Shown one piece after another: positions 16,158 to 17,892 of a DNA stretch of 64,000 bases. The stretch is from Cohaesibacter marisflavi. GTDB taxonomy: Bacteria > Pseudomonadota > Alphaproteobacteria > Rhizobiales > Cohaesibacteraceae. The DNA lies in assembly GCF_900115225.1 (NCBI RefSeq), contig NZ_FOVR01000001.1:372001-436000 (forward strand), read 5' to 3'. A program made the position numbers and the translations under genes. Each line of letters opens with the position of its first letter. The first letter of the stretch is position 1. The notes under the pieces were generated by a model that was given only the letters and a program-made list of their open reading frames with translations, was not told where the DNA came from and did not search any database.

Positions 16158-16571
16158 ATGACAGCACAAAAAGGCAAGGACCTTTTGCTCAAGGTGCACA
16201 ACACCACCGAAGACGCGTATATCACAGTGGCTGGCTTGCGTGCCCGCTCGCTCTCGTTCAACGCTGAGAGCGTAGACATCAGCCACACCGAATCCGCAGG
16301 ACGTTGGCGGGAGCTGCTTGCAGGGGCCGGATCACGTCGCGCAAGCCTATCGGGCAGCGGTCTTTTCAAAGACAGTGAGAGCGATGAGCGTATCCGGTCT
16401 TTGTTCTTCGATGGCACCATTGCTTCCTGGCAGGTGATTATCCCGGATTTTGGAACCCTTGAAGGAGCATTCCAGATCACCGCACTGGAATATTCCGGCC
16501 AGCATAACAATGAACTGTCGTTCGAGATGGCGCTGGAATCTGCCGGTGCTCTCGCCTTCTCGGCCTTGTGA
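16158..16571 (+). CDS. GTA g9: major tail (tube) protein, TP901-1 type
   Basis: The 137-residue product forms the tail tube. Recognised from MTAQKGKDLLLKV at the start, LRARSLSFNAESVDISHTES, the SRRASLSGSGLFKDS segment and LEGAFQITALEYSGQHNNEL near the end. AGGAGA sits 9-10 nt before the ATG. The stop overlaps an in-frame GTG of the longer g10 frame, but the real g10 start lies 18 nt downstream. Confidence 0.93.
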   Translation: MTAQKGKDLLLKVHNTTEDAYITVAGLRARSLSFNAESVDISHTESAGRWRELLAGAGSRRASLSGSGLFKDSESDERIRSLFFDGTIASWQVIIPDFGTLEGAFQITALEYSGQHNNELSFEMALESAGALAFSAL

Positions 16572-16588: not shown

Positions 16589-17002
16589 ATGGCCAACAGA
16601 CGACGGGGCGAGATTTCGCTCATTCTTGATGATCAACCATTCAAACTTTGCCTTACTCTTGGAGCGTTGGCCGAGCTGGAGGACAGCATGGGGCTGGATG
16701 ATATCAGCGCGCTTGCCGAACGCTTTTCGGGCGGCAGAGTGCGAAGTGGAGATTTGATAAAAATCCTCGGGGCAGCTTTGCGTGCAGGAGGTGCCAATAT
16801 CTCTGATCTTGAAGCGGGGTCTATGCGCTGTAAGGGAGGCGCTCCCGCCCTCACACGTGCGCTTGTTGAGCTGCTAAAGGAGACGTTCAGTCCTGAGCTC
16901 GAAGATAGCGTTCTGCAACCTCCCCACAAGGTCAAAGGAATGCCCTCAAATGAAGGAGGGCGTGCCAAAGGCACAAACCCCGGGAAGGCCGGTCTGGTTT
17001 AG
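16589..17002 (+). CDS. GTA g10: tail assembly chaperone-type protein
   Basis: The 137-residue product starts at ATG 16589, 7 nt after GGGGAGGG. It contains LCLTLGALAELEDSMGLDDI and LIKILGAALRAGGANISDLE, the conserved core of the gene transfer agent family protein (phage tail assembly chaperone TAC_11 type). In long-tailed phages this protein binds the tape measure during tail assembly, and a minor, longer form arises by ribosomal frameshifting. The last 40 residues are Gly/Lys/Pro-rich and overlap the -1 frame that encodes g10.1. Confidence 0.88.
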   Translation: MANRRRGEISLILDDQPFKLCLTLGALAELEDSMGLDDISALAERFSGGRVRSGDLIKILGAALRAGGANISDLEAGSMRCKGGAPALTRALVELLKETFSPELEDSVLQPPHKVKGMPSNEGGRAKGTNPGKAGLV

Positions 17003-17014
17003 CTGGATCGGCCT
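16975..17014 (+). promoter_or_regulatory. Candidate -1 ribosomal frameshift site joining g10 to g10.1
   Basis: In the g10 frame the heptamer A AAC CCC (16975-16981) has the X XXY YYZ form. Four nt further on, AGGCCG (16986-16991) can pair with CGGCCT (17009-17014), placing the g10 stop codon (17000-17002) in the loop. The downstream frame opened by a -1 slip encodes the conserved g10.1 domain and has no usable start codon of its own before that domain. Confidence 0.5.
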
Positions 17015-17202
17015 CTTCTTTAGCTTGTTTTCCATGGGCAACGCTGTTTGCCATGGCAAGCCAGCAACTTGGCTGGACACCTTCTGCGATATGGGCAGCA
17101 ACGCCCAAGGAGCTGCTGTGGGCGCTGAGAGGCCCTCCCAGTCGCAGTCCGTCCATGTCCCGTGAAGATTTTCAGACACTCAGCGCAGCCTTTCCAGATT
17201 GA
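16981..17202 (+). CDS. GTA g10.1: second tail assembly chaperone frame (likely frameshift extension)
   Basis: The -1 frame relative to g10 stays open from 16954 to the TGA at 17200-17202 and encodes CFPWATLFAMASQQLGWTPS followed by AIWAATPKELLWAL. This P-W...LG-x-x-P-x-x-F/I-W-x-x-T-P-x-E-L pattern is the hallmark of the small GTA/phage tail assembly chaperone g10.1 (TAC_6/DUF2376 type). No ATG, GTG or TTG occurs in this frame before the ATG at 17053, which lies inside the conserved core. A standalone product would therefore be only 49 residues and would lack the PW motif. Translation by -1 frameshifting from g10 is inferred. The alternatives are initiation at 17053 or at a non-standard codon. 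Confidence 0.7.
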   Translation, partial: REGRSGLAGSASSLACFPWATLFAMASQQLGWTPSAIWAATPKELLWALRGPPSRSPSMSREDFQTLSAAFPD

Positions 17203-17289: not shown

Positions 17290-17892
17290 ATGGCTGAAGA
17301 AGTTGTAGAAACGGCTGTCGTGAAAGTCGAGGCAGATATGAAGGCCTTCACAAAAGACCTATCGGTTGCAACCAAACAGGCCGAAAAGCTTGGCGACAAG
17401 ATTGCTGATGCTTTCGAAGATGCGATCGTCGGTGGCAAAAATCTCGAAACGCTTTTCAGCAAACTTGCACTTGATTTAAGCAAAAGCGCTCTGTCCGCCG
17501 GTGTGGAGCCGCTTAAGCAACTTGTTTCGGGATCGGCATCTGGCCTTGCCTCAGGGCTATTCTCTTCACTCACCTCTTCAAGCGGGGCAAGCGGAGCATC
17601 TCTGTTCGGCAGTCTGACGCCCTTTGCCAAGGGAGGCGTGGTGTCTGCTCCGACGCTGTTCCCGACAGGATCGGGCACCGGATTAATGGGAGAAGCCGGA
17701 GCAGAGGCCATTCTGCCGCTTCAGCGAGGTGCTGATGGAAAATTAGGTGTGGCAGTGCCGGGCGCAAGTGGACCGGCGGTCAACATCGTCATGAATGTCA
17801 GTACGCCCGACATACAGTCATTTTCGAAATCGCAAACCCAGATCGCGACTAAGCTGGCGCGCGCTGTTGGGCGTGGTCGCCGCGGCCTGTGA
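17290..17892 (+). CDS. GTA g11: short tail tape measure protein
   Basis: The 200-residue product sets tail length and fills the tube. The N-terminal third is a charged helix (VVKVEADMKAFTKDL). The centre is Gly/Ser-rich, and the segment LTPFAKGGVVSAPTLFPTG, then GLMGEAGAEAILPLQRGADG, is the classic C-terminal signature of tape measure proteins. It is very short compared with phage tape measures, as expected for the short GTA tail. AAGGGGG precedes the ATG. Confidence 0.9.
   Translation: MAEEVVETAVVKVEADMKAFTKDLSVATKQAEKLGDKIADAFEDAIVGGKNLETLFSKLALDLSKSALSAGVEPLKQLVSGSASGLASGLFSSLTSSSGASGASLFGSLTPFAKGGVVSAPTLFPTGSGTGLMGEAGAEAILPLQRGADGKLGVAVPGASGPAVNIVMNVSTPDIQSFSKSQTQIATKLARAVGRGRRGL

Follow-up and report, generated by a model that had tools for sequence, protein, structure and literature searches.

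Long-tailed phages are said to conserve a frameshift in their tail assembly chaperones, a subject treated by Xu, Hendrix and Duda in 2004. Their frameshift work is cited in the accessible excerpts of three papers (PMC5009743, PMC3556154, PMC10885494), and according to an excerpt of PMC8601537 most of the Rhodobacter phages in that study show a tail assembly chaperone frameshift. In the excerpted parts of a review, SD stimulators of -1 frameshifting are placed 9-14 nt upstream, as for the -1 events of the dnaX cassette with its 11-bp stem, and the heptamer G GGA AAG is described as highly shift-prone in E. coli (PMC5009743). For the gene transfer agent RcGTA, g10 is given as tail chaperone 1 and the following gene, g10.5, as tail chaperone 2 (excerpt of PMC11409702); we infer that g10.5 is the gene called g10.1 here. 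An excerpt of one study sets g10.1 aside as shorter than 300 nt (PMC9765227). An earlier reading of the DNA analyzed here (the original prediction) held that no frameshift between g10 and g10.1 had been described in a gene transfer agent (GTA), and this stands within the open-access literature searched, where the portions available, including those of PMC3711429, PMC9022992, PMC3610622 and PMC10783043, contain no such description. The +1 frameshift proposed in the hydrolase of a Wolbachia element (excerpt of PMC10299305) is a different case.

The window, meaning the whole 64,000-nt stretch of the Cohaesibacter marisflavi genome that was analyzed, contains an RcGTA-like head-tail cluster with genes for terminase, portal, S78 protease, capsid, g8, g9, g12, g13 and g15, in order, and the GTA-specific g15 is present with its GTA_TIM and Rcc01698_C domains. 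By gene content and order the cluster is a putative RcGTA-like gene transfer agent. All features given below lie on the forward strand. The gene g10 (16589..17002) encodes tail assembly chaperone 1 by its match to Phage_TAC_11, 'GTA-gp10' (PF11836, E = 8.3e-24), and by alignments, in which the conserved MANRRRGE makes ATG 16589 the likely start of a protein of 137 aa followed by the stop codon TAG at 17000..17002; an alternative longer form begins at GTG 16568. The g10.1 reading frame (16954..17202) is -1 relative to g10, and residues 26-82 of its translation, from FPW on (17029..17199), form the conserved domain of tail assembly chaperone 2 (Phage_TAC_6, PF09550, E = 8.9e-15), with the F of FPW at 17029. 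The original prediction was right in placing the conserved core in a -1 frame open from 16954, and in finding no ATG, GTG or TTG in it until 17053, which is inside the core. An ORF in the third frame, from ATG 16950, was rejected as it does not contain the conserved core.

The overlapping frames, both of which match tail assembly chaperone families, are flanked by the tail tube gene g9 upstream (16158..16571; PF06199, E = 7.9e-47) and downstream by g11 (17290..17892), a short tape measure-like protein of 200 aa that matches tape-measure families of PHROG (best 5.7e-15) and for which no match was found in Pfam. PF11836 is named as a tail assembly chaperone in Pfam, yet described there as 'tail tube protein, GTA-gp10'. 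The predicted structure of g10 (pLDDT 87.5) had two viral matches at E 0.001 or better in BFVD, neither of them with a named function; proteins named as tail assembly chaperones followed from E 3e-3, with TM up to 0.76, and some matches were named tail tube protein. The g10 model thus resembles phage tail assembly chaperones in BFVD; relatives in the PDB, sought by sequence and by fold of the g10 model, were not found.

The overlap looks like a full bacterial -1 cassette, with an SD-like element, a slippery heptamer and a hairpin. The heptamer is A AAC CCC at 16975..16981, and the original prediction of an X XXY YYZ site there is correct, the heptamer being in the g10 phase. AAACCCC is not rare by itself, with seven occurrences in the window against 6.1 expected, and the significance of the heptamer comes from comparison across genomes. 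A spacer (16982..16985) of 4 nt to an A-U base pair, or of 5 nt to the conserved G-C stem, separates it from a hairpin with a 5' arm at 16986..16998 and a 3' arm at 17002..17014, as given by the centroid structure and by comparison. This hairpin has 13 bp and a loop at 16999-17001, and the 60-nt piece containing it has a minimum free energy of -22.4 kcal/mol (z -2.24). The 6-bp stem proposed originally (16986-16991 with 17009-17014) has the right pairs but is just the base of this longer hairpin; the g10 stop does lie within the hairpin, and with the loop at 16999-17001 it spans the loop and the 3' arm instead of being held wholly in the loop. An element that was absent from the original prediction, the SD-like AAGGAGGG at 16953..16960 (anti-SD duplex -11.8 kcal/mol), is a predicted 5' stimulator of frameshifting; its spacing of 14 nt from the heptamer is the upper end of the 9-14 nt range.

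We put at roughly 90% the probability that g10.1 is made as the C-terminal portion of a fusion with g10 via programmed -1 ribosomal frameshifting, as originally predicted; the support comes from the frames, the missing start, the conserved heptamer, the hairpin, the SD-like element and the exclusion between heptamers and start codons described below. From these we infer the slip itself, its rate, and the existence and role of the fusion. Most ribosomes would end g10 at the TAG and yield the 137-aa protein, while a fraction would be slowed by the hairpin (16986-17014) and by anti-SD pairing with AAGGAGGG. On A AAC CCC the P- and A-site tRNAs would re-pair with AAA CCC and translation would continue in the -1 frame to yield a fusion protein about 204 aa long, with a junction reading ...TNP-REGRSGLAGSASSLACFPWATLF... 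By analogy with lambda gpG and gpGT, the tape measure protein (g11) would be coated by g10, and recruitment of the tail tube protein (g9) would fall to the few copies of the fusion.

Eighteen Cohaesibacter genomes were compared, 15 of which have g10. In two of these (L016, L021) g10.1 has an ATGA start, and in the other 13 it does not. The heptamer is conserved in 12 of the 13, as A AAC CCC (11) or A AAC CCG (1). The exception, L007, has the slip site A ACC CCC, with the hairpin kept and a weak SD-like element, and its junction could possibly represent recent decay or an altered slip site. The lack of a start codon holds in part: none is found upstream of the FPW core in 10 of the 13, and the remaining three carry ATG, TTG or GTG, not all in the same position; among the 12 genomes with the heptamer, three have one of these codons between the stop and the core. 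In L001-L012 the distance from the first base of the slip site to the F codon is 54 nt, with no indel in 12/12, and the g10 stop begins either 10 or 25 nt after the first slip-site base, so that the fixed 54 nt keep the -1 frame constant despite two positions of the stop. The codon before AAC is ACA, CCA, TTA, TCA, GCA or CAA, ending in A in 12/12, compared with 220 of 1222 g10 codons.

Neither A AAC CCC nor the conserved hairpin is present in L016 and L021; an in-phase CCCAAAA occurs in L016. These two relatives show an apparent switch of mechanism inside the genus. The original prediction held that relatives with an ordinary g10.1 start would count against frameshifting. Such genomes do exist, but as A AAC CCC is absent from these two Cohaesibacter and from the Rhodobacterales-like genomes with start codons, and as the two Cohaesibacter also lack the hairpin, we read them as replacements of the frameshift. 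With start codons in L016, in L021 and in most of the Rhodobacterales-like genomes, the fusion would not be needed everywhere.

The Cohaesibacter hairpin covaries. In L001-L012 a stem of 12 pairs begins 5 nt after the slip site in 12/12, 97.2% of its pair cells are paired and two pairs are changed on both sides (8 cells). Its covariation score of 0.318 compares with 0.218 +/- 0.026 in shuffles, with 0/500 as high, and is far above all slid versions; two of five hairpin measures, namely pairs with double changes and pair types, were not above shuffles in Cohaesibacter. The fold z is below -1.5 in 13/13 Cohaesibacter (including L017), with a mean of -2.85. A downstream hairpin common to the heptamer classes outside Cohaesibacter was sought and not found; the class mean fold z there ranged from +0.8 to -1.1, except for one single-locus class at -3.2, and was -0.79 in the ATGA control.

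Judged by best 8-nt windows, an SD-like element lies 9-14 nt before the slip site in 13 Cohaesibacter, and it reaches -7 kcal/mol or better in 10 of the 12 heptamer-bearing ones; weak elements are found in three genomes (L006, -4.8; L007, -4.2; L012, -6.6 kcal/mol). Mean anti-SD pairing dips to a trough in all five classes of 5 or more loci, at 8-nt windows that begin about 15-24 nt upstream of the heptamer, while ATGA junctions have no trough at that place and instead have one directly before the start. The SD-like element exceeds synonymous expectation both in Cohaesibacter (n = 12; Stouffer Z -4.4) and in other frameshift-type junctions (n = 100; Z -9.1; 58 at -7 or better), unlike in the ATGA controls (n = 49; Z +0.9; 2 at -7 or better).

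A wider comparison of 262 loci gave 225 unique junctions, mostly from the order of the window, after removal of 29 duplicates, three loci without g10 by the alignment model (L027-L029) and five without g10.1 nearby (L025, L144, L181, L211, L227); 56 further loci were hand-picked among the matches listed (251 matching genomes), the aim being one per genus code. The g10.1 frame is -1 in 205 junctions, +1 in 18, and in 2 the same as g10 after its stop. We scored a junction as having no start when ATG, GTG and TTG are all missing between a point 24 nt upstream of the g10 stop and the residue preceding F, a stretch that is short where the core precedes the stop and whose limit was extrapolated for 8 weakly aligned junctions. 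By this measure the 205 junctions comprise 54 with ATGA/GTGA, 32 with TTGA only, 25 with another start and 94 with none. Heptamers in phases 0, 1 and 2 number 76, 6 and 4 in the no-start class, 19, 1 and 1 with TTGA only, 17, 0 and 0 with other starts, and 5, 3 and 3 with ATGA/GTGA; with wider start limits the no-start class has 91 members (74, 6, 4) or 89 (72, 6, 4). The strict heptamer is missing in 18 of the 94, one of them the Cohaesibacter L007. Resampling of synonymous g10 codons gives expected in-phase numbers of 4.0 for TTGA only, 2.8 for other starts and 2.1 for ATGA/GTGA, so that the five observed in the last class (z 2.4) are slightly above chance.

The main heptamers of the no-start class are CCCTTTC (24), TTTCCCT (19), AAACCCT (15), AAACCCC (11) and GGGAAAG (9), and G GGA AAG is found in several relatives of the window junction. 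In one class the core's own P-F-P has the codons CCC TTT CCC, and the slip would thus fall on the first g10.1 codons. Another class has A AAC CCT TGA immediately before the g10 stop, where the TTG is probably a by-product, since the SD-like element is far from it.

A held-out set of 80 IMG/VR loci gave 70 new junctions (10 duplicates), with the -1 frame in 68. Of these, 37 have no start, with 32, 2 and 1 heptamers in phases 0, 1 and 2, and in-phase heptamers are found in 11/12 with TTGA only, 5/7 with other starts and 4/12 with ATGA/GTGA. As the last fraction is higher than in the first set, the exclusion is strong and not absolute. Across genomes the heptamer and a start codon for g10.1 thus strongly tend not to occur together. 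Many g10-bearing contigs are present in IMG/VR, several of them roughly 14-15 kb long, and they may be GTA clusters entered as viral genomes.

Altogether, 112 of the 225 junctions are frameshift-type, 73 start-type and 40 undecided (45, 17 and 16 among the 78 unique junctions of named genomes), and frameshift signals appear to be widespread in the GTA element of related bacteria. The g10 tree has 28 changes between the two states and is a weak tree of about 100 columns; correction for kinship with independent pairs on supported branches gave 6 pairs, with a mean of 3.8 for and 0 against (median p 0.125), a result that points toward exclusion but falls short of significance with so few pairs. 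Two of the loci set aside have single ORFs, L027:1132-1734 and L029:1153-1752, with a Phage_TAC_6 match in the C-terminal half (below the Pfam cut-off in L029). For the N-terminal half Phage_TAC_11 matches weakly and below cut-off in L029 (E 0.0049) and not at all in L027, and with matches this weak or missing a natural in-frame fusion is just suggestive.

Among the alternatives, the one that survives best, although we consider it improbable, is that g10.1 is a separate protein made by initiation or reinitiation that is coupled to termination of g10 and takes place either at ATG 17053 or at some non-standard codon close to the g10 stop. ATG 17053 is in frame, and among the 13 Cohaesibacter without ATGA start that column is ATG in three (L001, L002, L004) and TTG in four (L007, L008, L010, L012), but in six there is no start codon, and since the column is inside the conserved core the product would be without FPW; initiation at 17053 was rejected on these grounds. 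Coupled ATGA/GTGA starts do occur at 54 of the 205 -1 junctions, two Cohaesibacter among them, and in the no-start CCCTTT/TTTCCC class UGAUG is common at the g10 stop (19/32), which makes reinitiation giving an FPW-less product possible there. On the other hand, the SD-like element of the window is placed before the heptamer and far from 17053, whereas the trough of the ATGA junctions lies right before the start, and initiation accounts neither for the in-phase heptamer nor for the fixed distance from slip site to core.

It is less probable still that the heptamer arises as a side effect of Asn-Pro or Phe-Pro codons, with the hairpin serving another purpose, such as mRNA stability or as a transcription signal. 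FPW is itself conserved, so CCCTTTC and TTTCCCT follow in part from the protein, and the chance frequency of AAACCCC in the window agrees with this explanation. Synonymous resampling, however, keeps the g10 amino acids and expects 22.4 in-phase heptamers in the 94 no-start junctions against the 76 observed (z 14.9), and in Cohaesibacter the heptamer sits in a variable linker, followed at constant distance by the conserved stem. Splitting of one gene by a sequencing error, or its decay to a pseudogene, would produce adjacent coding regions that differ by a one-base frame, but we give it next to no credence, as the frame arrangement recurs in independent genomes in both the first and the held-out set, with protein conserved on both sides, and as an IMG/VR copy (L263), though probably of the same isolate, is identical to the window over the junction. 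Transcriptional slippage is unlikely, no long homopolymer being seen by inspection.

Of 32 junctions that we label, tentatively, Rhodobacterales-like, 23 have an ATGA/GTGA start in the -1 frame. A named Paracoccus, L158, falls within this group, and its +1 frame call (score 32.4) is doubtful as ATGA is visible at the g10 stop. In this locus (Paracoccus ferrooxidans pFER4, L158:2822-3050) the gene table has no protein between g10 and g11 and skips a locus tag; ATGA is present, as is a stretch resembling TAC_6, and the g10.1 copy may be broken.

A tblastn search with g10 matched six phage records, four of which were inspected; the same search with g10.1 gave no phage relatives. Two of the phage loci, L155 and L156, have A AAC CCT TGA. 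In a third, L161, the stop coincides with ATGA and a CCCTTTA lies at a distance; this locus had wrongly been called 'no start', and a second chaperone gene in its record begins at the ATGA. Desulfofustis phage LS06-2018-MD02 (L160), named after a bacterium outside the Alphaproteobacteria, has a pair resembling g10 and g10.1, with G GGA AAC; for the second frame of this pair no start was found. The sequences of these junctions are consistent with inheritance from a phage ancestor.

We suggest, with even odds, that the frameshift fusion is a common and perhaps ancestral mode of expressing the second tail chaperone in alphaproteobacterial GTAs, kept through descent at the level of the order with interchangeable sites (A AAC CCY, C CCT TTC CCT on the FPW codons, G GGA AAG), and that the RcGTA lineage replaced it by coupled initiation. 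If this ancestral reading is true, RcGTA, the best-studied model, conceals a recoding event that is inherited with the chromosome in a large share of the Hyphomicrobiales. The interest of the finding lies in the element being domesticated and inherited and in the apparent exchange of the mechanism in sister lineages. If true, such an element has kept a phage recoding device that controls the proportion of two chaperones, and the lineages that exchanged frameshifting for coupled initiation offer a natural comparison for why tails need the fusion. It would also affect GTA gene inventories, as in many genomes g10.1 gives gene callers no proper start codon.

Three known systems can be set beside this locus. 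RcGTA has homologous g10 and g10.1 genes in the same head-tail cluster, and the comparison on its side covers the 32 Rhodobacterales-like junctions, in which there are 0 in-phase heptamers. E. coli dnaX shares the combination of SD-like element, slippery heptamer and stem-loop, and the predicted elements of the window follow its layout, with an SD-like element 14 nt upstream and a 13-bp hairpin after 4 nt; dnaX is, however, an unrelated gene in which the slip, on A AAA AAG, soon leads to termination, whereas the slip in g10 would extend the protein. Like lambda G/GT, the g10/g10.1 pair lies between the tail tube and tape measure genes, with a predicted shift in the -1 direction that would take place shortly before the first chaperone gene ends. 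Unlike lambda, it belongs to a GTA and has the heptamer A AAC CCC with an SD-like element and a covarying hairpin, and other lineages of the same element use start codons. Judged from sequence, g10/g10.1 is very probably a frameshift of the lambda G/GT type in a gene transfer agent.
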